64,000 bases of DNA from Planctomycetota bacterium (GTDB lineage: Bacteria; Planctomycetota; UBA8742; UBA2392), in contig QEVF01000008.1 in NCBI GenBank assembly GCA_003576915.1, positions 62,001 through 126,000 on the forward strand. The letters run 5' to 3'. A model generated the notes under the pieces. It was not told where the DNA came from and did no database searches. It saw nothing but the letters and a program-made list of their open reading frames with translations. Positions 17,915-34,258 of this stretch are shown in pieces. Each line of letters starts with the position of its first letter. Position 1 is the first letter of the stretch. A program made the position numbers and the translations under genes.

Positions 17915-19225
17915 TTACTCCGCGAGGCTGTCGTTCACCGTCGGGGTGTCGGACGAGGGCAGGGCCGTGTGCAGGCGGTCCCGGAACAGGCGCTGGAAGG
18001 CCCCGGCATCATCACTGAGCGTTACGATCTCAAAGCGGTCTGCCATAGGCGCGCAGAGCGGCGGCCGCGAACCCTGAAACAGCGCCAACTGCAACCCGGC
18101 GTGGGCCATCTCCACGGCGGGGGCCAGGGAGACGCCATCGAGCAGCACCACGCCGCTGAAGTCGGCGCTGCAGCGCACACGCACTTTGACTTTGCCGGGG
18201 TGGGCCTGGCGCGGCAGGTACTCAAAGCCGCCCAGGTGCAACCATTGGCCCGTGGGGGTGCTGCCGCTGATGATGTGCGTGAGTGACGACGGAGAACCGT
18301 CCACGAGCAGATCCAGCATGACACTGCCGGCACTGAGGGAACTTACATAGGCCCAGGTTCCCAGGGCCCAGAAGCGACCTACGGCCAGAGGCGGCTGGCG
18401 CTGCGCCAGGTCCTGCACGAGCTCGGCCGCCGTGGCGCCGTTGCCGCTGATTTTCAGCGCACCTCCGCCGAACAGAAACTGCGTGGTGTCCCGGGAGAGT
18501 ATGGCGGCGCCCGACAGGGCCTCCCAGTGCGTGAAAGACCCGGAATCATAGTCTGCAAAGGCGCCGTCGATAATCACATTGCGGCGATCCGTCGCCGCGC
18601 CCACCGTGACGGGAATGACCCACAACGGCTGGGCCGCGCCGTGTTCCGGCGTGGCGCGGAACTCTTCGCCGCCCTCGGCCACTCGGTGCTGCACGGCATC
18701 CTTGACGCACTCGACGCTGATGGATTGGGAGCGTGCCCGCTCGTTGGGTTGCACCGTTTCCGAGGGGTCCACGGACATCAGCGCCGCGTAACAGCGCGCA
18801 TTGCCTGCATTCTGCGGCGCGGCCGTAACGCTGGCGACGTTGACACTGGAGCGCCGGACAGTTTCACCGGCGGCATCCATGGCTCGGGCCAGGGCTGCCA
18901 GCACGACTTGGGGCGAGGCGCCGCGGACGCCCAGCTCCGCAGCCAGGGGACCGCGAATCCAGGTTTCGAGGTGGCCCTGCAGGCGCGCGGCCCACCCTTC
19001 CACGCCGCGCGCGGCTTCATGAAACAGCGACAGGGTCTCGAGCATGTCGCGTTCCGGCGGGCTGTCGTTCAGGACGGCGATGAACTCCTCGCGCAGGCGA
19101 TCGAGCGAGCGGAAGGATTCGCCTCCGCCGCTGAACAGCAGGCCGCGCCGGGCCAGATTCTCAAATTGAGTGAACGCGCGGGCATAGACTCCGAACACTT
19201 CGAACAGTGCGTTGAAATCCGGCAT
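17915..19225 (-). CDS. Phage-cassette structural protein with carbohydrate-binding-like beta domain
   Basis: A 436-residue protein. Residues 1-125 are helical (MPDFNALFEVFGVYARAF; LDRLREEFIAVLNDS). Residues about 215-375 look like a jelly-roll carbohydrate-binding module: NVIIDGAFADYDSGSFTHW, a central strand region and VKVRVRCSADFSGVVLLDGV, the 'feature plus description' pattern seen in CBM-type domains on virions. No catalytic motif is evident. It is transcribed with the other cassette genes, 15 bases after the preceding stop. Likely a surface or neck-attached virion protein; host-glycan binding is inference. Confidence 0.65.
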   Translation of the reverse strand: MPDFNALFEVFGVYARAFTQFENLARRGLLFSGGGESFRSLDRLREEFIAVLNDSPPERDMLETLSLFHEAARGVEGWAARLQGHLETWIRGPLAAELGVRGASPQVVLAALARAMDAAGETVRRSSVNVASVTAAPQNAGNARCYAALMSVDPSETVQPNERARSQSISVECVKDAVQHRVAEGGEEFRATPEHGAAQPLWVIPVTVGAATDRRNVIIDGAFADYDSGSFTHWEALSGAAILSRDTTQFLFGGGALKISGNGATAAELVQDLAQRQPPLAVGRFWALGTWAYVSSLSAGSVMLDLLVDGSPSSLTHIISGSTPTGQWLHLGGFEYLPRQAHPGKVKVRVRCSADFSGVVLLDGVSLAPAVEMAHAGLQLALFQGSRPPLCAPMADRFEIVTLSDDAGAFQRLFRDRLHTALPSSDTPTVNDSLAE

Positions 19226-19240
19226 GGATTCTCCCAGCGC

Positions 19241-19894
19241 TCAGGCGCGCTTGACGTGATGCGAAAACGGAAACCACGGGCGGCCCTCAACGCTCAGGCG
19301 AAGGGCGGCCAGGGCCGAGGCAGCCTGCCGGCGATACTTCTCCGCCAGATACGCAGCGGGTTCGCCCTGCCGGTGGGTGAGGAAGTCGTAGATGAAGGCC
19401 ATGGCGTAGTGCGCGGCTACGTCCGCCAGCGGCTGCAGCGAGTCAAGGCGATCTGGGCCCTGGCGGGCTTGCAGCAGGCAATCGAGCGTGCGCTTGGCCG
19501 AGGCGCAGGGCAGGTCAAATCCCGGCTCGCCCGCAAAGCGCCCGGCGGACAGAAAGCCGGCGATGCCGGCCTGAAGCGCCGCAAGGTCATCGCCGCAGGC
19601 ATAGAACAGGTCCAGTTCGCCCTTTCCGGCAGAAGGCGCGTCCAGGCGCACGCGGCCGCTCAGCCCGCTGTGGTTGAGCGCTTCGAGAACCAGCAGGCCC
19701 CTCCCGCCCGGCAGGGTGCCGCCGGCCACGGCTGCCGTGCGGGCGGCGTCAGAATAGAGGCTTATCGCGGCATCGCCCTCCGAGACAACGACCGTCGAGT
19801 AGAGCCGGCCGTGATCGGTGTTGGCGCGGTTGGCGCCGGAAAAGCGCCACGCGGATGTACCCGCCAGTCCGCGAATTGTCACATAGTCGAGCAT
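19241..19894 (-). CDS. Phage-cassette protein at head-tail connector position
   Basis: A 217-residue protein starting MLDYVTIRGLAG at 19894, with GGGGA eight bases upstream; an upstream ATG at 19963 would overlap the capsid gene and adds 23 low-complexity residues. The N-terminal half is beta-rich with Gly/Ala; the C-terminal half is helical (LADVAAHYAMAFIYDFL; EKYRRQAASALAALRLSVEG). Directly downstream of the major capsid gene, where tailed phages encode head completion or connector proteins. No sequence family recognised, so the role rests on position alone. Confidence 0.6.
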   Translation of the reverse strand: MLDYVTIRGLAGTSAWRFSGANRANTDHGRLYSTVVVSEGDAAISLYSDAARTAAVAGGTLPGGRGLLVLEALNHSGLSGRVRLDAPSAGKGELDLFYACGDDLAALQAGIAGFLSAGRFAGEPGFDLPCASAKRTLDCLLQARQGPDRLDSLQPLADVAAHYAMAFIYDFLTHRQGEPAAYLAEKYRRQAASALAALRLSVEGRPWFPFSHHVKRA

Positions 19895-19907
19895 GGGATC
19901 GTTCCCC

Positions 19908-19945
19908 GGCAGGCGGGCGGGGGCGCCCGTGCGCCCCCGCCTGCC
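19908..19945 (-). promoter_or_regulatory. GC-rich hairpin behind the capsid gene
   Basis: GGCAGGC plus GGGGGCGC (with a four-base GGGC bulge between) pairs with GCGCCCCCGCCTGCC, a 15-bp stem with a four-base loop. It lies between the capsid stop and the ribosome site of the next gene. There is no T-run, so it is more likely an RNA-stability or partial-termination element than a full terminator; this would keep capsid mRNA above that of downstream genes. Confidence 0.5.
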
Positions 19946-19949
19946 GCGG

Positions 19950-21095
19950 TCAGGCCGTGGCAAGGTTGGTGATCACGCCGTGGCCGCCGTCGCCGGCGTT
20001 GAGCACCTCCAGCGTGTATTCGCCGATGATCTGCGCTTTGCGGAAGTCGCCGCTCTCGGCCAGGGGCTTGACGAAGAAGCTGCGGCCCTGAAGCGGCAGC
20101 ACCTGAATCTTGTCGAGGTCCAGCAGAAACACTTTGTCCGCCGGCACCCAGCGCGAAAGCACCACACGCTGCGCGCCAAAGTCGCTTTCGTAGACATCGA
20201 CGACACTCTTGAGCACGGTGCTCTCGGCCTCATAGCGCCGCGCGCTCTGGATGAAGCCTGAAATGCGGCGCTTCTGGAAGCCGCCGCAGACAATGGCTCC
20301 GGGGCGGCCTCCCTTTTCCCAGCAGGCGCGCAGGGCGCTGTTGAGCGTTGCCTCGTCCAGCGCGGCAGCGGCAGCGTCATGGACTACGGCCTCGGCGCCG
20401 GAAATGAACTGGAGCAGCCCGCCCATGGTGCGGCGAGCCGAAGCGCTGCCCTCGGGGCTTGTGGCGGACTTGAAGCCGTTGATCACGCTCTGTTCCAGCG
20501 AGCGCAGCAGCTCACGCAGGCGCTGGATGACCTGATAGTCGAACTCGCGCTCCACCGCATGGAGACCGACGGCGTCAAGGGAGCCCGAGATCATCACGCT
20601 CTCCGTGAATATCTGGGTGAAGTTCTCGCGTCGCTGCCGGTTCTGGAAGGCGGGCAGGGGCGCATCCTCGCCTTCCAGAGCAGCGTGGCCGATCACGCGC
20701 ACAAGCTGGTTGTCGGACACGGCAGCAGCCACGCTGCCGCCGTAGCCGCGCGCCACGGTCAGGGTGTTGGCGGCGACGGCGGTTATCTGGAGCACCTCGT
20801 CGCTGCCCTCGGGCTTGATCAGGTCTCCGACGCGGAATGCGGAACCCTGGTCCACGATCCAGCTTGTGGCCGAGGCGTTGTAGCCGGCGGCGTTGTCGAT
20901 GCGCGAGTAACCGGGGTTGAGCTTGTCTTCGAACCATTCGTGGCGCGTGGACTTGGCGGCGTAGCGCGGGCTGCCTATGGCGTCGAGCAGGGGCGTGTCG
21001 AAGGGCGTGATCAGCCCCACGAGGTCACTGACGTCGTCCACAAGTTCAGGCAGGGCGCTGCCGCCGTCGTAGGTGGCTTTTCCGGTAAAGGGCAT
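19950..21095 (-). CDS. Phage major capsid protein, SU10/DUF5309 type
   Basis: A 381-residue HK97-fold capsid protein. The N-terminal hallmark of the SU10-like (DUF5309) family is plain: DLVGLITPFDTPLLDAIG followed by STRHEWFEDKLN. The central part RENFTQIFTESVMISGSLDA, the RTMGGLL motif and the C-terminal DKVFLLDLDKIQVLPL also fit. Length matches the family. Intact, no stop or frameshift. It lies between a scaffold-like gene upstream and a connector-position gene downstream, as in phage head modules. Family knowledge: such proteins form the icosahedral shell. Whether this one still assembles is not shown by sequence. Confidence 0.9.
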   Translation of the reverse strand: MPFTGKATYDGGSALPELVDDVSDLVGLITPFDTPLLDAIGSPRYAAKSTRHEWFEDKLNPGYSRIDNAAGYNASATSWIVDQGSAFRVGDLIKPEGSDEVLQITAVAANTLTVARGYGGSVAAAVSDNQLVRVIGHAALEGEDAPLPAFQNRQRRENFTQIFTESVMISGSLDAVGLHAVEREFDYQVIQRLRELLRSLEQSVINGFKSATSPEGSASARRTMGGLLQFISGAEAVVHDAAAAALDEATLNSALRACWEKGGRPGAIVCGGFQKRRISGFIQSARRYEAESTVLKSVVDVYESDFGAQRVVLSRWVPADKVFLLDLDKIQVLPLQGRSFFVKPLAESGDFRKAQIIGEYTLEVLNAGDGGHGVITNLATA

Positions 21096-21196
21096 GTCGG
21101 TATCTCCAAATGGGGTGTGGGCAGGAGGCCCGTGCCGAAGGTTGGCGGGCTACTGCGGGTCAGGCGGGCTGCAGGCCCGCAAGTGGGTCCGGCGCT

Positions 21197-21209
21197 AGCA
21201 GCCTGCTAG
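21197..21209 (-). repeat. Second isolated MITE-family end
   Basis: AGCAGCCTGCTAG, identical to 10741-10753. With two more bases it forms the short palindrome CTAGCAG-C-CTGCTAG, which could be an excision footprint of a full element. The TAG on the minus strand is the stop of the 134-residue cassette gene. Confidence 0.6.
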
Positions 21210-21610
21210 GACCGGGCCCGTTTGATCGGCCTCAGCGTGTGGACGCCGCGGGATAGGGCGCCGTGCTTGACGGCCTCGCGCATGCGCTCCATTTCGGGCG
21301 TGGCCGCGGCCAGCTTTTCTGCGGCAGGCGAAGCGGCAGGCCTGAACAGCCAGGGCCGGCCGCGGCGCAGCTCGGCATAGGCGGCATCAAGGTCCGTGAG
21401 TTGGACGGCGTCCAGCAGCTTCAGGGCGTCGCCCGGGAACTGCAGTCCTTCGCGGGGGGCGCGCTCGAGAAAGGCCTGCTGCGCGGCCAGCGTGGATGCG
21501 CGCAACTCAAGCTCTTTGACTCGATCGAGCGCAGACGCCACGGCGGGCTCCTGGGCCAGCGCCTGGGGCAGGGCGGCTGCGAGTTGCTCGGAGAGGGACT
21601 TTTCGGGCAT
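21206..21610 (-). CDS. Scaffold-like small protein of the phage head module
   Basis: A 134-residue, mainly helical and charged protein (SLSEQLAAALPQALAQ; VKELELRASTLAAQQAFLER). It starts at 21610 with GGAG six bases upstream; an ATG at 21622 is possible. Position between portal and major capsid genes and the helical make-up fit a capsid scaffolding or head-decoration protein, but no motif proves this. A basic C-terminal tail (LRPIKRARS) is like the capsid-binding ends of scaffolds. The stop codon falls in a MITE-type end. Confidence 0.6.
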   Translation of the reverse strand: MPEKSLSEQLAAALPQALAQEPAVASALDRVKELELRASTLAAQQAFLERAPREGLQFPGDALKLLDAVQLTDLDAAYAELRRGRPWLFRPAASPAAEKLAAATPEMERMREAVKHGALSRGVHTLRPIKRARS

Positions 21611-21649
21611 ATGGGTCTCCATGGTCGGAATCGGGGCCGCTCCGGGGCC

Positions 21650-23056
21650 TCAGCGGGCGACGCCCGGGGCCGGTGGCTCGGCGGGACAGGGGCCCCCGGA
21701 GCCGATGGCCGCCATTTCGGCGCGCCGGGCCAGCCAGCGGCGTTTGGCGTCCTCTGGTGAATCGAAGGCGTCAGGGTCGTCACGCAGCATGATGTCCCAG
21801 GGCGCAATCAATCCCTGCTCGAGGCGCCAGCGGTCGTGGGCCATGCGCTCGGAGATGCTTTGCTCGAGCTGCGGCTCGGGGAAGTCCATGGCCAGCCGGA
21901 CTTCGCCGGTCAGGCCTTCGTGCTCGCGCAGCACGGCCAGGGCGCAGCGCAGAAGATCCTGCTCGGCGGCGCCGAACAGCGCCATGCGCTCGACACGGTC
22001 TTCCAATACGGGGGACTGTGCGGCGAGAATGCTGACGCCGCTGACGCCCTGGCCGACGTTGACACTGAGCACGCTTTCCGGCACACGCTGGGTCTTGAGC
22101 AGGGTGCGCAGGTGAAATTCGAGGTCAGAGATCAGCTCGGCGATGGGCGCGTTTGGCGACTTGAAGTTGATGCCGAAGGGCTGCTGTCCGCTGACAGAGA
22201 ACGCGATAGCCCGCGCCGGCCCCACGGCGATCTCCTGGGCGGGGTCCGGGTTGACGATCTCCATCACGCCAAAGCCCTGCATGGCCACCGTGAACGCCAG
22301 TTCGGAAAGCTTGGCGTTGAACTCGGCGTTGGCGTGGCACAGCGAGCGGCCCCGGCCCTCGACCCAGAAGCCATCGACGGGCAGGCGGTCATGGAAGAAC
22401 ACGAAGGGAACCCGTCCCAGTTCATGGCTGCTTTCCGCCGCGACGCGGCCGTTCACGACGGTGGTGACCTGCCGGGCTGTCCAGACGTGGGCCAGGTTTT
22501 CCTCGCGCTCGCCAAAGGCCAGCGCCACCACGGCCAGGGGGCGCACGGGCAATGCCGGGTCGGGAAGGACGACCAGCCGGTGCGCGGGCCAGGGCCAGAA
22601 CCGCAACTCGCCTTCCTGATAGCTCACGCTCAGGGCGCACACGCCCTGCAGGCGCGTGAGGCGGTCCACGGTCAGCATGAGCGGCGCCATCGGGTTGATT
22701 GAAAGGGCGCGCTGGATACGCTCTGCTGCCCGCGCATCGCCGCTGAAGCGGCGGTTGACGGGGCGGTGGTAGAGCTGGCCCAACACGTCAATGACGACGC
22801 GGGTCAGGTTGAGGAAGCACTTGTGCGGGCGGCGCGAGAACTCGAGGGGGCTTTCGCCGGGCAGCCTCGGAATGTAGGCCAGCTGATCGCCCTGATACAT
22901 GGCGTGGCAGAAGCGGGCCTGGGCCAGGCGGGCTTCTTCGCTCGGGGCCAGATGGTAGATTTCGTCCACGCTGCGCGGCATGAGCCGGCGGCGCGCGCTG
23001 GCGGGTGCGGTGAGCTCAACGGCGATGGACAGCGCGGAGTTGTGGGCGTCTTGCAT
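21650..23056 (-). CDS. Phage portal protein
   Basis: A 468-residue portal-type protein, the dodecameric ring at the capsid vertex through which DNA passes. The start at 23056 (MQDAHNSALS) has GGAGG five to six bases upstream; a longer reading to 23161 lacks a site. Features of portals: N-terminal segment KCFLNLTRVVIDVLGQLYHR, beta wing region (LRFWPWPAHRLVVLPDP), long central helix segment (FNAKLSELAFTVAMQGFG) and FHLRTLLKTQRVPESVL with a helical C-terminus. It is the first gene of the cassette; no terminase gene precedes it, since divergent argS begins 133 bases away. Confidence 0.82.
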   Translation of the reverse strand: MQDAHNSALSIAVELTAPASARRRLMPRSVDEIYHLAPSEEARLAQARFCHAMYQGDQLAYIPRLPGESPLEFSRRPHKCFLNLTRVVIDVLGQLYHRPVNRRFSGDARAAERIQRALSINPMAPLMLTVDRLTRLQGVCALSVSYQEGELRFWPWPAHRLVVLPDPALPVRPLAVVALAFGEREENLAHVWTARQVTTVVNGRVAAESSHELGRVPFVFFHDRLPVDGFWVEGRGRSLCHANAEFNAKLSELAFTVAMQGFGVMEIVNPDPAQEIAVGPARAIAFSVSGQQPFGINFKSPNAPIAELISDLEFHLRTLLKTQRVPESVLSVNVGQGVSGVSILAAQSPVLEDRVERMALFGAAEQDLLRCALAVLREHEGLTGEVRLAMDFPEPQLEQSISERMAHDRWRLEQGLIAPWDIMLRDDPDAFDSPEDAKRRWLARRAEMAAIGSGGPCPAEPPAPGVAR

Positions 23057-23188
23057 GGCGGCCTCCAACCCCTGGAAAAAATGGACACAGTTGCAGCGCG
23101 TTTTTCTTGCGGGCGAGTGGCGCGTTTGGCGCAAAGTGCGGCATGAGACGTAGTTGGGCAATTCAGGATTTCCGGCCGGGAGCGGACC

Positions 23189-25168
23189 ATGGATATTCTT
23201 CGGGCACCCATTGCGCAGGAGCTGGCCCGCTGGCCTTCATTCCGGCAGGCGGGGCTGACAGCGGCTGAGATCCAGGCCCAGCTTGTGCGCCCGCCCAAGC
23301 GGGACATGGGTGATGTTGCCCTCGGGTGCTTCGTGTTCGCCAAAGCGGCCGGTGTCAAGCCCAACGAGGTGGCGGCGAAGCTGGCCGCCGGCGATGTGCC
23401 GCCGGACAACGGCGCCCCGCGCCTGATCGAAGGGGCGACGGCAGCCGGGCCCTATGTCAATTTCAAGCTCAATCGCGCGGCATGCATGGCTCTGGTGCTG
23501 GGCGCCATTGAGCGCAGTTGCCCGGGCGAAAACATTGAAGACGCGCCGCAATGGAATTTTGGCGCAGGCGAAGAGGGCAAGGGCAAGACGTTGGTGCTGG
23601 ATTTTTCCAGCCCCAACATCGCCAAGCCCCTGGCGGTGCATCACCTGCGCAGCACGATGATCGGCTACGCGATCAAGAAGATGCGGGAGAGCCAGGGGTG
23701 GCGCGTAGTCGGCATCAATCACCTTGGCGACTGGGGCACGGGCTTTGGCAAGCTGATTGCAGGCCTGAAGAAGTACTTTCCCGAGGTCGGCCAGCGCGCG
23801 CTGGCGGGCGATGCGCGGCCCCTGGGCGACATGACCGTGCAGGTGTTGATCGAGACGTACCAGCGATTCAATCAGGAACTCAAGCAGCACGAAGACCTGG
23901 AAGACGCGGGTAAGCGCGAGTTTGCGCTGCTGGAGCGCCACATCGAGGCTCTGATGGCCGACCGGGCCCACGAAGCGGGGCCGGAGGGCAAAGCCAACTT
24001 CCTGATCTGGGAGCACGCGCGCAACATCAGCCTTGCCGAGTTCGAGCGCGTTTACGCCCACCTGGGTATCAGCTTTCACCTGTGGCCCGTGGTGGACCTG
24101 CATCGCAAGCGCGTTCTGACGGAGGAGCCGGAGCGATTTTTCCGCGAGAACGCGCTCTACATCGGAGAGAGCTACTACGTCACGGCGGAAGACCTTTGCC
24201 GCCGCATCATCGCCGACGCCCTTGAGCTGAAGGTGGCCGAAGAGTCCGAGGGCGCCATGGTGATCTACACCCACGGCAAGGACAAGCCGCCGATCATCCT
24301 GGTGAAGAACGACGGCGCAACGGCCTATCACACGCGCGACATGGCAGCGGCGCTCTATCGCCACCGGCACTTCAACAGCGAAACGCTGGTCTATGTCGTG
24401 GGCGGCGAACAGCGGCTTCATTTTCAGCAGTTGTTCAAGGGCCTGGAATTGCTTGGTCACGCCTGGGCCGGCCAATGCGCGCATGTCGATTTCGGCCTGC
24501 TTCTCTTCAAGCAGCCGGACGGAAAATGGGCCAAGGCCAGCACCCGGGCCGGCCGCGTCGTCATGCTCGAGGATCTGCTCGACGAAGCGGTCGAGGCCGT
24601 GCGCGGCATCATCCGCGAGAAGAACCAGGATCTCGCCCGGGACGCGCAGCAGGCTGAGCGCGTCGCCCATGCCGTGGGCGTCGGGGCTGTCGTGTTCAAC
24701 GACCTGAAAAGCGGGCGCCGCAACGACATCAAGTTCGACTGGGACGAGATCCTCAACTTCACGGGCGAAACCGGGCCCTACATGCTCATGCAGTTCGTGC
24801 GCATGGGCAGCGTGACCGAGAAGTTTCATGAAGCCGCGAGGCTGAAGGACTGGGGGGCCCACGCCTGGAAGCAGGGCGATTGCGCCCAACTCAAGCGCGA
24901 TGACGAATGGGAGCTTGTCCTCCTGCTGGCCAATTTTCCTGAAGCCCTGCGCCGGGCCAGCGCGGACTACGAGCCGTCCATCGTGGCCAAGGCCCTCATT
25001 GAAGTCGCCGCGCAGACGTCGAGCTGGTGGACCAACACCAAGGACACCCGCATCGTGGGCGAAGACGCCGAGCTTTCCAAGGCCCGCGTGCGCCTGGTCA
25101 ACGCGGTGCGCAAGGTGCTGGGCCGCGGATTGCTGCTGCTGGGCATGACGCTGGTGGAGCGGATGTAG
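23189..25168 (+). CDS. argS: Arginyl-tRNA synthetase
   Basis: A 659-residue class I synthetase charging tRNA-Arg. The N-terminal Add1 domain (about 1-120) is followed by the catalytic core with DFSSPNIAKPLAVHHLRST; HHLRS (151-155) is the HIGH-type motif. KASTRAG holds the KMSKS position. The C-terminal DALR anticodon domain ends in the usual GLLLLGMTLVERM. The ribosome site GGGAG is six bases upstream. Transcribed alone, divergent from the phage cassette and convergent with greA. Confidence 0.97.
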   Translation: MDILRAPIAQELARWPSFRQAGLTAAEIQAQLVRPPKRDMGDVALGCFVFAKAAGVKPNEVAAKLAAGDVPPDNGAPRLIEGATAAGPYVNFKLNRAACMALVLGAIERSCPGENIEDAPQWNFGAGEEGKGKTLVLDFSSPNIAKPLAVHHLRSTMIGYAIKKMRESQGWRVVGINHLGDWGTGFGKLIAGLKKYFPEVGQRALAGDARPLGDMTVQVLIETYQRFNQELKQHEDLEDAGKREFALLERHIEALMADRAHEAGPEGKANFLIWEHARNISLAEFERVYAHLGISFHLWPVVDLHRKRVLTEEPERFFRENALYIGESYYVTAEDLCRRIIADALELKVAEESEGAMVIYTHGKDKPPIILVKNDGATAYHTRDMAAALYRHRHFNSETLVYVVGGEQRLHFQQLFKGLELLGHAWAGQCAHVDFGLLLFKQPDGKWAKASTRAGRVVMLEDLLDEAVEAVRGIIREKNQDLARDAQQAERVAHAVGVGAVVFNDLKSGRRNDIKFDWDEILNFTGETGPYMLMQFVRMGSVTEKFHEAARLKDWGAHAWKQGDCAQLKRDDEWELVLLLANFPEALRRASADYEPSIVAKALIEVAAQTSSWWTNTKDTRIVGEDAELSKARVRLVNAVRKVLGRGLLLLGMTLVERM

Positions 25169-25232: not shown

Positions 25233-27443
25233 TCAGGCCAGGGCCTTTTCAATGGCAACGACTTTGTAGTTCACGCTGCCTTCCGGCGTGGTGACCACGG
25301 CATCCTCGCCGGCGGCCTTGCCGAGAATGCCCTGGGCGATGGGGCTTTCGTTGCTGATGATGTTGTTGGCATGGTCTGCCTCGTAGGGGCCCAGGATCGT
25401 GTACACGACCTGCTTGCCCTGCGGGTTCTTGAGCGTCACCCGCGTGCCGAAGCCTGCCTTCGTGGAGTCGACTTCGTCGGCGGAGACCACCTTGACGCGC
25501 TTGAGCTCTTCCATGATCTCCTTGGCGCGCTCCTTGAGGCGGGACTCCTTCTCGCGCGCGGCATCAAGTTCCGCGTTCTCCGAGATATCGCCCATGGCCA
25601 ATGCCTCGCCGATCTGCTTGGCGACTGCCGGGAGGTCTTCTTCCTGGAGCCGGCGAAGCTCGTCTTCGCGCTTGCGGCGGCCGTTGGCGGTGGCGAGGAT
25701 GCCTTCGGCCTCTTCGATCTGACCCAGGGGCACGAGCTTTTCCTCACGCTGCAGCAGGGCGGGAAAGGCGCGGGTGATAACGTCGCGCAGCGTGCCCAGG
25801 TGGGTCTCACTGAGCCAGCGCGAACGCTTGATGGCGTGCAGCAGGTGGCTGGCGGACTCCTCGTCGCGGCCGGCAATCGCTGTCTGGAGCAGGCGACCCT
25901 GGCGATCGGTCATGGCGCTGCGCAGGGAAGCCAGGGTGTCCTTGAGCTTGGACTCGCCACGCTCGATGCGGGTCAGAACCTTGTTGGCCAGCCAGGTCAG
26001 GCGTTCAAACAGGCGGTCGGAGGTGGGCAGCTCGAGGCCCTGCGGCAGCTTCTGGCCCAAAATGGCACGGCGCGCAACCCAGAGGTACTGCAGGGGGTAG
26101 GCCTCGGGGTCGTCGAGTACGATCTTGACGGCCTTGAGCAGCGGACCCTGGTTGTCGCCCTTGAGCAGGCGCTCGCTGATGCGGTCCCACACGTCAGCCA
26201 TGTCCTGAAGGAAGGCGCGGCCGAAGACTTCGTTCCAGCCCTCTTTGTTGAGGGAGCGGTGCATCTCGAGGGCGCGCTCCTGGTACTCGGCGTCGCCCAA
26301 CTTGACGGTCATTTCGAGAAGCTTCTCGGCGTCACGCACAAGGTCTTCAGCGCTGGCCGGGGCGCTGACCCCGAGGTCTTCCTCGGCCTGGGCCAGATCG
26401 GCGATCATGAAGCAGACCAGCAGCTTCTCATGGTCCTTGTTGGCCAGGGGCAGGAGGCTTTCGGCAAAGCCCTTGAGCAGCGCCTTGCGTTCCGTGGAGC
26501 TGTCACTCTCCTTGAGGTAGCGACGCATGACATTGAGCTTGTCGAAGAGGCGCCGCGCGTTCTCAAACATCTCGCGGGCTTCCGTTTCCTGGGTCACGGC
26601 GGTCTGGAGGCGCTCAATGGTGGGGTTGTTGCCGGCGCCTACCTTCACGTAGGGGTGCTTGGCCAGCGCCTTGCGGGCGCCCTGCCACCACTTCGACCAC
26701 TCCTTGGCGGGAATCACGGAGGGGCAGAGTTCGGCCTTGATGCGCTTGAGGTTGCTGGAGTTGTTCAGGCTCTTGAGCACGGTCAGGATCACGCCGGCGG
26801 GATCTGTGCCCGCGCGGGCTTTGAGGCCGTCGCCGTCGGCGGCCTTCTGCACGAGGATGTTGTCAGTCGAGAGCTTGGCAAAGAAGCGGGCGGCGGCGCC
26901 GAGCTTGACCGTGTGGCCCTTCTTGTCCGCAAAGTCGATGGTCAGGGTGCCGGCGGCGGCGTCCATGGCCGTGACCTTGCCCAGGCCCCAGCCCTGCTCA
27001 TGGAAGAGGTAGTCACCGGGGATGAACGTGAGCTGGCGCATCAGGGAGTCAACGAAGGCGAAGTCCGAGCCCTTGGACTCCTCGGTGGCGCGCGCCACAA
27101 TCTTGTCAAAGCCGGGGATCGAGGCGTATTCGGCCTGGTAGGTCTTGACCGCGAGATCCCTCAGCCGCGGGTTCTTGGGGCTGACCTTCGCAATGGCCTC
27201 CACCACGCGCACGGCCTTGCGCGGCTCCTTCTCGAGCAGCACGGGTACCAGGGGTTCCAGCAGGTTGCCCGCCTTCTCGCCCTGGCCGGCCTTGTCGAGT
27301 TTGTCCACGATGGGAAACAGGCTGTCCACCTCCGTCGGCGCCTTCTGGGCGGCGCTGGCAAAGGCGGTTTCCACCTCGCCGAACTGGGAACGGCTGATGA
27401 GTTCGTTCATGCGCTGGACATCGGCGGACAGGGCGTTGCTCAT
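25233..27443 (-). CDS. greA: Long-form GreA transcript cleavage factor with N-terminal helical extension
   Basis: A 736-residue protein whose last 155 residues are a complete GreA/GreB factor, which rescues backtracked RNA polymerase. The coiled-coil tip motif GDISENAEL carries the Asp and Glu needed for catalysis; the C-terminal FKBP-like domain includes GTRVTLKNPQGKQVVYTILG and ISNESPIAQGILG. The first 580 residues are helical and TPR-like, with the segment GDYLFHEQGWGLGKVTAMD about residue 145 resembling a small beta domain. This long form is known from Chlamydiae and some relatives, which supports a PVC affiliation. Start at 27443; upstream lie a good promoter and a hairpin (27492-27548). 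Confidence 0.9.
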   Translation of the reverse strand: MSNALSADVQRMNELISRSQFGEVETAFASAAQKAPTEVDSLFPIVDKLDKAGQGEKAGNLLEPLVPVLLEKEPRKAVRVVEAIAKVSPKNPRLRDLAVKTYQAEYASIPGFDKIVARATEESKGSDFAFVDSLMRQLTFIPGDYLFHEQGWGLGKVTAMDAAAGTLTIDFADKKGHTVKLGAAARFFAKLSTDNILVQKAADGDGLKARAGTDPAGVILTVLKSLNNSSNLKRIKAELCPSVIPAKEWSKWWQGARKALAKHPYVKVGAGNNPTIERLQTAVTQETEAREMFENARRLFDKLNVMRRYLKESDSSTERKALLKGFAESLLPLANKDHEKLLVCFMIADLAQAEEDLGVSAPASAEDLVRDAEKLLEMTVKLGDAEYQERALEMHRSLNKEGWNEVFGRAFLQDMADVWDRISERLLKGDNQGPLLKAVKIVLDDPEAYPLQYLWVARRAILGQKLPQGLELPTSDRLFERLTWLANKVLTRIERGESKLKDTLASLRSAMTDRQGRLLQTAIAGRDEESASHLLHAIKRSRWLSETHLGTLRDVITRAFPALLQREEKLVPLGQIEEAEGILATANGRRKREDELRRLQEEDLPAVAKQIGEALAMGDISENAELDAAREKESRLKERAKEIMEELKRVKVVSADEVDSTKAGFGTRVTLKNPQGKQVVYTILGPYEADHANNIISNESPIAQGILGKAAGEDAVVTTPEGSVNYKVVAIEKALA

Positions 27444-27655: not shown

Positions 27656-28732
27656 ATGCAGCCCAACGCTTCAGCGCCCGCCAGCAAGCCTCAAAGCGGT
27701 GTCCTCTTCGTCGGTATTGACCTCGGCACCAGCCACAGCGCCATTGCCGCCTCCAACGGCGTGCGCACCAGCATCGGCAGCTTTGTAGCCTACCCGCGCG
27801 ACGTGATCTCGAAGAAGGCCCTGGGACGCGACAAGCTGTTCGGCGATGAAGCCCTCAAGCACAAGCACGCCTGTGATTTCTACCGCCCCATGGAAAAGGG
27901 CGAAGTCCTCTACCGCGACCTCGACAAATCCATCAATCGCGACCCCGCCCGCACCCAGCAGGCCATCCACGACTTGCTTGAACACGTCGTCAGCCTGGCC
28001 AAGCCGCGCCCCGATGACCTCATCTACGGCGTGATCGGAGCGCCGGCCCAGGCCAGCCTGCACAGCCAGAAGAGCCTGCTCGAAGCCGCGCGCGGCGTGC
28101 TGGACTGCGTGATGATCTGCAGCGAGCCCTTTGCCGTTGCCTACGGCCTGAACTTTCTCACGGACACACTGGTGATTGACATCGGCGCGGGCACGACGGA
28201 CCTGTGCCGCATGCACGGCGCCCTGCCCAGCGCCGACGACCAGGTCACCCTGTCATCGGCGGGCGATGCGGTGGATCGCCGGCTGTTTGAGTTGCTGCGC
28301 GAGGCCTGCCCCGGCGCGGACTTCACGATCAACATGGTCAAGCAGATCAAGGAGAAGCACAGCTTTCTCTCGCAGCGCGCGGCCGAGCGCGTGGTGGTGA
28401 CTCTGCCGGTGCGGGGCGTTCCCACACAGTTTGACGTGACAGAGGCCTTGCAGAAGGCGACAGAGAGCATCGTGCCGGAGATCGTCAACGGCCTGCACAC
28501 TCTGATTGCGGGCTACGACCCCGAGTTTCAGGCAGGCATGCGCGACAACGTGCTGCTGGCCGGCGGCGGCTCTCAGATCATCGGCCTGGACAAGGCCATC
28601 GAGCGCAAACTGGCTGAACTGGGCGGCGGCAAGGTGAGGCGCGTGGAAGAGCCCGCATTTGCCGGAGCCAACGGTGCCTTGCACCTGGCCCAGGACATGC
28701 CCGCCGAGTTCTGGAACCAGCTCGACGGCTAG
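27656..28732 (+). CDS. MamK-like bacterial actin filament protein
   Basis: A 358-residue actin-fold ATPase. Phosphate-1 loop: LFVGIDLGTSHSAIA; phosphate-2 loop: LVIDIGAGTTDLCRM; adenosine motif: LLAGGGSQIIGL. Beyond the shared fold, several stretches follow MamK of magnetotactic bacteria rather than MreB or DnaK: YPRDVISKKALGRDKLFGDE, VIGAPAQASLHSQ, EPFAVAYGL, DDQVTLSSAGDAVDRRL and the C-terminal AEFWNQL; length is also that of MamK (about 350). DnaK-type substrate domains are absent. MamK makes cytoskeletal filaments that align magnetosomes; no magnetosome gene is near here, so it probably positions something else. GGAG lies five bases before the ATG. It is monocistronic with its own terminator. 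Confidence 0.82.
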   Translation: MQPNASAPASKPQSGVLFVGIDLGTSHSAIAASNGVRTSIGSFVAYPRDVISKKALGRDKLFGDEALKHKHACDFYRPMEKGEVLYRDLDKSINRDPARTQQAIHDLLEHVVSLAKPRPDDLIYGVIGAPAQASLHSQKSLLEAARGVLDCVMICSEPFAVAYGLNFLTDTLVIDIGAGTTDLCRMHGALPSADDQVTLSSAGDAVDRRLFELLREACPGADFTINMVKQIKEKHSFLSQRAAERVVVTLPVRGVPTQFDVTEALQKATESIVPEIVNGLHTLIAGYDPEFQAGMRDNVLLAGGGSQIIGLDKAIERKLAELGGGKVRRVEEPAFAGANGALHLAQDMPAEFWNQLDG

Positions 28733-28758: not shown

Positions 28759-28788
28759 CGAAGCCCACAGCACCTGCTGTGGGCTTCG
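28759..28788 (+). terminator. Terminator after the MamK-like gene
   Basis: CGAAGCCCACAGCA and TGCTGTGGGCTTCG form a perfect 14-bp stem, 26 bases after the stop codon. The following sequence has few T residues. The rest of the gap to 28990 shows no convincing gene. Confidence 0.65.
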
Positions 28789-28990: not shown

Positions 28991-29626
28991 TCACTTCTGA
29001 CGGTCCAGCGGGGTTCTTTGTCCGGCACTGAAGAGCGCTTCGAGCATGTCGCGGTAGGCGAGCGCCTGCTTGGCGATGATGTCGGGCTCTTTGTAAGTGC
29101 GCGCGAGTATGAAGGCGCCTTCGAAAATGACCTGGAACATCTCGGCCACCTGGCGCAGGTCGGCGGGCGCAGGCTTGCGCGTTTTGGCGGCTGACTTCAG
29201 CTTGCCCTCAATCCAGTCCGCCCACAGCCGCAACTGCGCCTCGCAGGCCTTGCGCGACTCTTCGTTGAAGAGCTGCCCCTCATAGCAGTAACTCGCCATC
29301 AGGCAGCCCGGGTTTTCGGGCGCCTCCTTGAACATCTCGGCCGCCAGCCCGCAGAGCAGCAGCACCTGTTGCAGGGGGTCGCGCGAGAGCGACTCCACGC
29401 GCGCGACGGCTTCCTTGAACAGGGCGTGGTCGTGCTCGACAAAACGGCGGACCAGCTCCACTGCAAGTTCGTCCTTGCTCTTGAAGTGGTAGAAAAACGT
29501 GCCCTTGGTGAGCTTCGCCTTCTCAAGAATCTCGTCAATGGAAGTCGCCGCCAGCCCGTTCTCGAGCGCCAGTTCAAGCGCGGCATCGAGCAGCAAGGTG
29601 CGTGTCTTGGAGCCGTCCTTGGGCAT
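28991..29626 (-). CDS. TetR/AcrR-family transcriptional repressor
   Basis: A 211-residue regulator. The N-terminal TetR helix-turn-helix is typical: LLLDAALELALENGLAATS, then DEILEKAKLTKGTFFYHFKSKDEL (quoted in two parts of one region, residues about 12-55). The rest is the helical ligand-binding and dimer domain. It is divergent from a membrane hydroxylase gene, with one palindrome beside each start (29637-29652 and 29736-29755), the usual layout for a repressor that controls itself and its neighbour. The NemR-like operator form suggests a reactive or lipophilic inducer, which is inference. Confidence 0.9.
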   Translation of the reverse strand: MPKDGSKTRTLLLDAALELALENGLAATSIDEILEKAKLTKGTFFYHFKSKDELAVELVRRFVEHDHALFKEAVARVESLSRDPLQQVLLLCGLAAEMFKEAPENPGCLMASYCYEGQLFNEESRKACEAQLRLWADWIEGKLKSAAKTRKPAPADLRQVAEMFQVIFEGAFILARTYKEPDIIAKQALAYRDMLEALFSAGQRTPLDRQK

Positions 29627-29792: not shown

Positions 29793-30614
29793 ATGGACGA
29801 TTATCTGCCCCTCTTGATGGCTTTTGGCCCCCTGGCCTTCATCCCCCTGTTCCTGCTGCTGGACCTGCTGCCGCACGCCCAGAGTTATCGCAGCACCCGC
29901 TGGTGGAAGCTGCGCGCTCTGGCTGTGTCGCTTGCCGGCGTGGGGGTGTCGTTCGGCACGGGACTTCTGTGGGAGCGTGTGTGGGTGTTCCCTTCTCTGC
30001 TGGATCTCTCCTGGCTTGGCGTGATGGGCGCGGCGGTAGGCGTTGTCGTGTACGAGTTCTTTCACTACTGGTTCCACCGCGGGGTGCATCGCTTCAGCTT
30101 CACTTGGCGCTGGTTCCACCAGATGCACCACGCGCCCGAGCGCTTTGACGCCTACAGCGCCTTCTACCAGTCGCCGCTGGACGCCGTGGCCTTCACCAGC
30201 ATAGGCATTGTCGTCGCCTTTCCGCTTCTGGGGCTCAGCCCTGAGGCGGGCGCTCTGCTCAACGCCTTCCTGATGTTCAACGCCATGTTCCAGCACGCCA
30301 ACATCAAGACGCCGCGCTGGCTGGGCTACATCATTCAGCGGCCGGAGAGCCACTCGGTGCACCACGCCCGCGGCGTGCACATGTTCAACTACTGTGACCT
30401 GCCCATGTGGGATATGCTGTTTGGCACCTTCCGCAATCCGCCCAACTTCGCCCGCGAGGTGGGGCTCTATGACGGGGCGTCGGCGCGCATCGGTGCCATG
30501 CTGGTGGGGCGCGACCTCCGTCCCGAACAAGCCCCGGTGGCAGCCCGCGACCTTGAAGAAGACGAGCGCATGGCCGCCTACTGGTCGGACCGCCAGGCCC
30601 GCCTCAGCTCATAG
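29793..30614 (+). CDS. Sterol desaturase / fatty acid hydroxylase family membrane di-iron enzyme
   Basis: A 273-residue integral membrane oxygenase. Four to five hydrophobic segments surround the three histidine clusters that bind two irons: HYWFHRGVH (about 90), HQMHH (about 112) and HSVHH (about 190), matching the family pattern HxxxH / HxxHH / HxxHH. It would hydroxylate or desaturate a lipid or sterol-like chain using O2. GGAGA lies six to nine bases before the ATG. It is under probable control of the divergent TetR repressor. The substrate is unknown. Confidence 0.9.
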   Translation: MDDYLPLLMAFGPLAFIPLFLLLDLLPHAQSYRSTRWWKLRALAVSLAGVGVSFGTGLLWERVWVFPSLLDLSWLGVMGAAVGVVVYEFFHYWFHRGVHRFSFTWRWFHQMHHAPERFDAYSAFYQSPLDAVAFTSIGIVVAFPLLGLSPEAGALLNAFLMFNAMFQHANIKTPRWLGYIIQRPESHSVHHARGVHMFNYCDLPMWDMLFGTFRNPPNFAREVGLYDGASARIGAMLVGRDLRPEQAPVAARDLEEDERMAAYWSDRQARLSS

Positions 30615-33091: not shown

Positions 33092-34258
33092 ATGACCGAC
33101 GACCGCAGACACATGTGGCGTGCATTGGAGTTGGCGCGACGCGGCAGGCCCTATGTCGCGCCCAACCCCATGTGCGGTGCTGTCATCGTCAAGGACGGCA
33201 AGCTGGTGGCGGAGGCCTGCCATGAGGCCTTTGGCGAACTGCATGCGGAAGCTGCGGCGCTGAAGGTGGCCGGTTCCGGCGCGCGGGGTTCGACGCTGTA
33301 CGTGACGCTTGAACCCTGCTGCGAGCATTACGAGGGCAAGAAGACGCCGCCCTGCGTGCCGGCGCTGATCGAGGCCGGCATCAGGCGCGTGGTGGTGGCC
33401 GTGGAGGACCCGCACCAGCACGTGCGCGGCAAGGGCCTCAAGCTGCTGCGTGAGGCCGGCGTTGAAGTGGAAGTCGGCGTGTGCAAGGAAGAAGCCCGTG
33501 AACTCAATGCGGCCTATTTCAGCCATGTCGAGCGCGGGCGACCTCTGGTGACGGCCAAATGGGCCATGACGCTGGACGGCAAGATTGCGACGCGCACGGG
33601 GGACGCGCGCTGGATCACCAGCGACCAGGCGCGCAATGAAGTTCACTACGATCGTGGCTGCACCGGGGCCATTATCGTGGGCATCGGAACGGTACTTATC
33701 GACGATCCGGAACTGACGGCGCGAGGTGAAGTCGGGCGCCAGCCCGTGCGTGTGGTGGTGGATACTGACTTGCGCCTGCCGCTGGAAAGCAAGCTGGTGC
33801 GGACGGCGGATCAGGGGCCGGTGTTCGTGTACGCGGCGGAGGACTCAAGCCCCGAGCGCCAGTCCCGGCTTGAAGAGGCGGGGGTCTACCTGATTCTGCT
33901 GCAGCGGCACGGCAAGACCCACCTGCGCTGGATGGAAATCTGCACAGACCTGGGGGAGCGCGGCGTGAACTCGGCCATCATTGAGGGCGGCGGCAGCCTG
34001 GTGGCCAGCGCGTTTCAGGAGCGCACCGTGGACCGGGTGAAGATCTTCGTGGCGCCCAAGGTCTTCGGCGGAGAGGACGCCAAGAGCCCTGTGGAAGGGC
34101 CGGGGGTTCCCGACGTATCGAGGGCGGTGACTTTCACGAAGCTTCACACCCGCACCCTGGGACCCGACATTGTCATCGAAGGAACGGTGGTCTACCCGAC
34201 TGACGACGGTCCGTCGCCCAGCGGCTATTGGACCGGCTATGGCGGCGACAATCCCTGA
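33092..34258 (+). CDS. ribD: Riboflavin biosynthesis deaminase/reductase
   Basis: A 388-residue bifunctional RibD: an N-terminal pyrimidine deaminase and a C-terminal NADPH reductase converting the GTP cyclohydrolase product to 5-amino-6-ribitylaminouracil phosphate. The zinc site is HAEAAAL together with LEPCCEHYEGKKTPPC. The reductase begins near residue 150 (PLVTAKWAMTLDGKIATRTG, DARWITS) and includes GIGTVLIDDPELT and IIEGGGSLVASAF. GGAGG is six bases before the ATG. No FMN riboswitch or other rib gene is near. The last 20 residues are an unusual Pro/Gly/Tyr-rich extension. Confidence 0.95.
   Translation: MTDDRRHMWRALELARRGRPYVAPNPMCGAVIVKDGKLVAEACHEAFGELHAEAAALKVAGSGARGSTLYVTLEPCCEHYEGKKTPPCVPALIEAGIRRVVVAVEDPHQHVRGKGLKLLREAGVEVEVGVCKEEARELNAAYFSHVERGRPLVTAKWAMTLDGKIATRTGDARWITSDQARNEVHYDRGCTGAIIVGIGTVLIDDPELTARGEVGRQPVRVVVDTDLRLPLESKLVRTADQGPVFVYAAEDSSPERQSRLEEAGVYLILLQRHGKTHLRWMEICTDLGERGVNSAIIEGGGSLVASAFQERTVDRVKIFVAPKVFGGEDAKSPVEGPGVPDVSRAVTFTKLHTRTLGPDIVIEGTVVYPTDDGPSPSGYWTGYGGDNP

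Follow-up and report, generated by a model that had tools for sequence, protein, structure and literature searches.

A stand-alone MamK-family actin gene conserved across a class of Planctomycetota without detected magnetosome markers

In textbooks MamK figures as the actin that positions organelles, and finding a gene of its family away from any magnetosome genes raises the question of what such a filament does in its host. The gene considered here lies in a window of 64,000 nucleotides (the whole stretch of DNA that was analysed, C52:62001-126000) from an uncultured Planctomycetota MAG of 3.89 Mb in 59 contigs, 87% complete, the relatives of which are also uncultured Planctomycetota. The first-pass annotation of this window proposed that the gene encodes a MamK-like actin outside a magnetosome island and that it could position another compartment or protein body. 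Homologues of MamK are already known from non-magnetotactic bacteria and were explained as transfers or relics (PMC5955933). They have also been reported in general terms, not cleanly separated from homologues, in work that uses MamK as the best single marker of magnetosome gene clusters (PMC7449369), and planctobacterial MamK was named as a possible actin ancestor in a 2020 paper (PMC7203096).

Identity of the gene and its conserved sites

The open reading frame and the sites discussed below are located as follows.

27656..28732, plus strand: stand-alone mamK-family actin gene (ATG at 27656, stop codon at 28730-28732, 358 amino acids)
27713..27733, plus strand: phosphate-1 nucleotide-binding motif GIDLGTS (amino acids 20-26), identical in AMB-1 MamK and invariant in the class alignment A1
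28121..28135, plus strand: SEPFA codons (amino acids 156-160), including E157, equivalent to MamK E143 in the alignment with AMB-1 MamK
28175..28201, plus strand: phosphate-2 motif IDIGAGTTD (amino acids 174-182), including D175, equivalent to MamK D161 in the alignment with AMB-1 MamK
28532..28534, plus strand: codon of A293, equivalent by alignment to MamK A278 at the polymerisation interface
28759..28788, plus strand: perfect 14-bp inverted repeat shortly 3' of the stop codon, a hairpin without a T-run

By its sequence the frame is assigned to the MamK family of actins. It scored 411.7 bits (E 2e-123) with the NCBIfam model NF040964, over the curated MamK cut-off of 400 bits, and its best sequence matches in the PDB were MamK structures (5jyg, 5ljv and 5ljw, E about 1e-77 to 3e-77), followed by BeeR (8r2n, E 6e-37) and then MreB (1jce, E 1.2e-9). 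The protein is identical to AMB-1 MamK at 134 of 331 positions (40%) and shares 49% identity with a MamK from a Nitrospirota magnetosome cluster; its AlphaFold model, of moderate quality (pLDDT 67, pTM 0.55), had MamK 5ljv as first structure match (E 2.3e-27). The segments quoted in the first-pass annotation (YPRDVI, LGRDKLFGDEA, EPFAVAYGL, DDQVTLSSAGDAVDRRL and EFWNQL) are all present in the frame, and its choice of MamK rather than MreB or DnaK agrees with the NCBIfam score, the PDB ranking and the tree described below.

MreB, DnaK, BeeR and Mad28 were each considered as the identity of the protein and were ruled out by HMM scores, the tree and pairwise comparison. With MreB the scores were 56 and 41 bits against subfamily cut-offs of 293-366, and the BeeR score of 184.2 bits falls short of the cut-off, 530; the window protein has only about 15 residues ahead of its core, compared with the disordered N-terminal extension of 30-50 amino acids in BeeR. 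Mad28 is an actin-like protein that accompanies MamK in deep-branching magnetotactic bacteria, and a presumed Mad28 (in L084) is only 25% identical to the window protein over 129 residues. A true MreB is encoded elsewhere in the host genome and scores 418 bits with the Pfam model MreB_Mbl.

The phosphate-binding glycines of AMB-1 MamK and its catalytic residues E143 and D161 are kept in the window protein. S156, E157, P158 and F159, together with D175 and G177-D182, are invariant in alignment A1, and all 12 class relatives in that alignment match the NCBIfam MamK model. Exchange of MamK A278 for Asp blocks polymerisation (title of PDB 5ljw). Judged from the alignments, the nucleotide site of the window protein is intact and the interface residue is preserved. 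AMB-1 MamK (5ljv, 5jyg) and the MamKs of Nitrospirota and Omnitrophota clusters belong to the same HMM family, with the same catalytic residues and interface residue, and have the C-terminal end EFWxQL/YWxQL in common with the window protein. The inverted repeat after the stop codon folds as RNA at -32.7 kcal/mol (z -4.5) and is a possible transcript end, and a sigma-70 promoter scan found no promoter, a result that carries little weight in a planctomycete.

Magnetosome markers, conservation and phylogeny

Neither the window nor the class loci gave a match in tblastn searches with MamA, MamB, MamE, MamM, MamP and MamQ, in line with the earlier claim that no mam gene is present. Beyond the window, the genome-wide search comprised the magnetochrome domain and CDF proteins scored against MamM. 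PF18509, the magnetochrome domain, had no match in any of the 20 class genomes but was recovered from both magnetotactic genomes used as positive control; CDF proteins, present in all 20 class genomes, never reached the MamM cut-off of 350 bits (best scores 84.7 bits in the host genome and 190.8 bits in the class). In a reference magnetosome cluster from Nitrospirae (L088), MamM scored 400 bits and was accompanied by MamP, MamQ, MamB, MamA and MamE. The gene, as had been proposed, lies outside any magnetosome island, with no mam marker found in genome or class; this sets it apart from a functional magnetosome MamK, which would belong to or accompany a magnetosome gene cluster. Because these searches found no magnetosome genes, the role of this MamK in its host is not magnetosome alignment.

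The neighbours had been described as housekeeping genes, and the assignments around mamK bear this out (argS, GreA/GreB-domain protein, TetR, fatty acid hydroxylase and RibD), with a phage-type gene further upstream.

19950-21095, minus strand: phage SU10-type major capsid protein gene (Pfam E 1.7e-81)
23189-25168: arginyl-tRNA synthetase gene (argS)
25233-27443, minus strand: gene for a GreA/GreB-domain protein of 736 amino acids, divergent from mamK
28991-29626: TetR gene
29793-30614: fatty acid hydroxylase gene
33092-34258: RibD gene

In the 736-residue protein the GreA/GreB domain is C-terminal and follows a long N-terminal part without assignment, and the protein is conserved within the genus. 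The SU10-type capsid gene near argS is either a prophage remnant or a domesticated capsid; it and its neighbours at 17915-23161, which are without assignment, are common to genome G001 at high identity.

Orthologues of mamK were found in every genome of the family (16/16) and of the order (17/17) and in 19/20 for the class, where the one genome missing it is 54% complete. The class proteins are 55-98% identical to the window protein, and four of the 19 orthologues fall under the MamK cut-off (G009, G010 and G015 at 397-398 bits; the G006 protein is truncated). Class mamK genes gave dN/dS values of 0.03-0.28 (Nei-Gojobori; dS above about 0.7 is near saturation), an estimate that places the window gene under purifying selection. 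Conserved neighbours were sought in 18 class loci and were found within the genus only, apart from one lipoprotein gene 5' of mamK that genus g3 shares with G004, and no conserved cargo gene adjoins mamK in the class loci compared. The gene is stand-alone in the class and was kept throughout while its surroundings changed. From its presence in 19 of 20 genomes, the purifying selection and the lack of conserved neighbours it follows that mamK is a core gene of this planctomycete lineage, neither a relic nor a one-off. Two further observations concern these loci. The lipoprotein-like gene of genus g3 and G004 (L149:10642-13422, and at L141, L142 and L143) contains a very long EKxxREKKEKAEKERKE repeat, and a 60-residue open frame in G001 (L007, C8:2923-3087), 62% identical to the last 58 residues of MamK, is probably, by this similarity, a fragment of a second MamK copy.

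A maximum-likelihood tree of 125 rows, made with a quick search, separated a MamK clade of 123 rows from BeeR and MreB (SH-aLRT 96). The window protein did not group with MreB or DnaK, the placement that had been set beforehand as refuting a MamK identity; it falls within its own class, and the class falls within a 64-row Planctomycetota clade free of magnetosome clusters (SH-aLRT 95). MamKs from magnetosome clusters occupy three places in the tree, although a single origin for them was not rejected (AU p 0.21), and a grouping of the window's class with them was weakly rejected (AU p 0.035). MamK-family genes were found in 142 of 392 Planctomycetota genomes, some of which carry two or more copies, so that about 64% of the genomes sampled are without one.

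A coiled-coil protein encoded beside MamK in other Planctomycetota

Most MamK genes of Planctomycetota have a gene for a coiled-coil protein directly 5' of them (for example L067:9140-9949, L064:1534-2328, L060:1956-2783 and L042:396-1322). The family has the N-terminal motif DxLKxxGxxKVNVVxxxRIxxLIxxAV and a conserved end, SIYREVQGL...KKELMxxIFxANLxLQ, and in a Pfam search no family covered its core form. A model of it matched 52 of the loci examined, always on the MamK strand and directly upstream, with the stop codon 45-243 nt ahead of the conserved MamK core. Among the 392 genomes, 110 have both genes, 32 MamK alone, 19 the coiled-coil gene alone and 231 neither; the co-occurrence has a Fisher p of about 3e-47 when shared ancestry is ignored, and for 79 of the 99 coiled-coil matches listed, spread over 70 genomes, the gene that follows directly on the same strand is MamK. 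The linkage suggests the coiled-coil family as a candidate MamK-binding partner. A search of open-access papers returned no description of this planctomycete pair. Some loci carry additional domains or genes: a GGDEF domain is fused N-terminally to the coiled-coil protein at L061 (7886-9928) and, by eye, at L071 and L032, and about eight loci (L058, L064, L065, L067, L069, L072, L075 and L086) have, one gene beyond the pair on its upstream side, an ATPase gene of the MinD/ParA or tyrosine-kinase (CpsD-like) type.

No coiled-coil gene lies directly upstream of mamK in the window or at any class locus read, and 16 of the 32 genomes with MamK alone belong to the window's own family. The coiled-coil model did find distant matches in every genome of the family, one in each and two in G007 and G015, and unlinked proteins of three further class genomes (G016, G017 and G018) also match its C-terminal part. 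In the host genome the match is a coiled-coil protein of 404 amino acids on contig C33 (about 170984-172198, E 1.4e-6). A profile comparison covered its N-terminal 97 columns only (probability 87.5%, E 3.6e-6), a kind of match to be read with the proneness of coiled coils to false likeness in mind, and its AlphaFold model was poor (pLDDT 45). We regard this protein, on sequence similarity, as the best partner candidate in the host genome.

Role of the filament and alternative explanations

The presence of MamK throughout the class without signs of magnetosomes, and its usual pairing with a coiled-coil protein in other planctomycetes, lead us to conclude that MamK filaments probably have a non-magnetic job of older date. 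We propose, with a probability of roughly 0.6, that the window gene specifies a vertically inherited, ATP-driven MamK filament, organised by a coiled-coil protein, for internal cell organisation other than that of magnetosomes. Polymerisation, the physical interaction, the identity of the partner in the host genome and the cellular role are what we infer here. Going by established MamK biology, the window protein would bind ATP and assemble into MamK-like two-stranded filaments, which would turn over by ATP hydrolysis. A coiled-coil partner probably anchors, bundles, remodels or regulates the filament, as its linkage elsewhere in the phylum suggests, and in the window's family the gene for this putative partner would no longer adjoin MamK. 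The filament would then plausibly serve cell shape, partitioning or division, in a lineage with MreB but no detectable FtsZ; a model that matched FtsZ in 13 of 14 control genomes had no match in any of the 20 genomes of the class. Our leading guess is cell organisation or division in a cell without FtsZ. MamK is not a general answer to FtsZ loss, since about two-thirds of the Planctomycetota genomes sampled are without it, and the occurrence of the coiled-coil family in 19 genomes without detected MamK weighs against the proposed explanation. A more far-reaching version, which we hold to be doubtful, is that a planctomycete module of MamK-family actin and coiled-coil protein predates magnetosomes and was the source of magnetosome MamK, the filament of the class organising or dividing the cell.

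The main rival, because of an amidase linkage in the sister clade, is a cell-envelope or division actin whose filament would direct peptidoglycan remodelling and partly substitute for FtsZ/FtsA where cells lack FtsZ. At 16 sister-clade loci (between L090 and L131, for example L099:8857-9990 and L101:8899-10026), from Acidobacteriota, Nitrospirota, Desulfobulbaceae, Gammaproteobacteria and Bacteroidota, a gene for a predicted membrane-anchored N-acetylmuramoyl-L-alanine amidase lies directly upstream of MamK or overlaps it, and the failure to find FtsZ in the class would also fit. However, MamK of the window's class has no amidase or other wall gene as its neighbour, and MamK is absent from many Planctomycetota; we consider this explanation unlikely. 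Another possibility is that the gene is a relic or a recent acquisition from a magnetosome cluster, the other genes having been lost or left unassembled. This was the earlier explanation for MamK-like genes in non-magnetotactic bacteria (PMC5955933), magnetosome clusters do exist in some Planctomycetota and the MAG is incomplete. It is already disfavoured, and we rate it as very improbable, as the gene is retained under purifying selection in nearly the whole class with a distribution that follows taxonomy, it branches within a clade free of magnetosome clusters and apart from the MamKs of such clusters, albeit with the weak rejection given above, and neither a magnetochrome domain nor a MamM-grade protein was found in the 20 genomes. 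Stand-alone actins without an assigned role often turn out to be ParM-like, and a phage-type capsid gene lies 7 kb upstream, but a DNA-segregating actin of a replicon or mobile element is the least credible explanation for a chromosomal core gene that sits beside argS, has differing contexts in relatives, is much closer to MamK than to ParM and has no ParR-like adaptor noticed adjoining it.

The proposed coiled-coil-organised filament can be set beside several known systems. The MamK-like protein of AMB-1 (PMC2818848) is likewise encoded outside the main magnetosome island, although its host is magnetotactic, whereas no mam markers were found in the window genome; compared with the MamKs of magnetosome clusters, the window gene belongs to a vertically inherited core and to a clade free of such clusters. 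BeeR, a three-stranded tubular actin of Verrucomicrobiota related to MamK (PMC11929497, PDB 8r2n), is another example of such an actin in non-magnetotactic bacteria but branches outside the MamK clade, and the window protein is without its N-terminal extension. In Desulfovibrio magneticus RS-1, MamK works in a network with the coiled-coil proteins Mad20, Mad23, Mad25 and Mad26 (PMC12748827), a precedent for the pairing proposed here, although that system is magnetosome-bound.

A class-wide MamK without magnetosomes would show another conserved job for the family and makes MamK by itself a poor marker of magnetosome clusters. A general bacterial filament may lie at the origin of the cytoskeleton of magnetosomes, and the coiled-coil linkage provides a concrete lead to filament function in bacteria without FtsZ. 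Relatives of MamK also occur in Acidobacteriota, Nitrospirota, Desulfobulbaceae, Thiomargarita, Beggiatoa and Bacteroidota. MamK-family genes were seen in archaea-labelled MAGs (Methanoperedens and Poseidoniales; L106, L117, L130, L133 and L135), where binning errors are possible, and those in MAGs labelled Thiomargarita, Parabeggiatoa, Beggiatoa and a related gammaproteobacterium (L119, L120, L123 and L134) form a long branch of their own.
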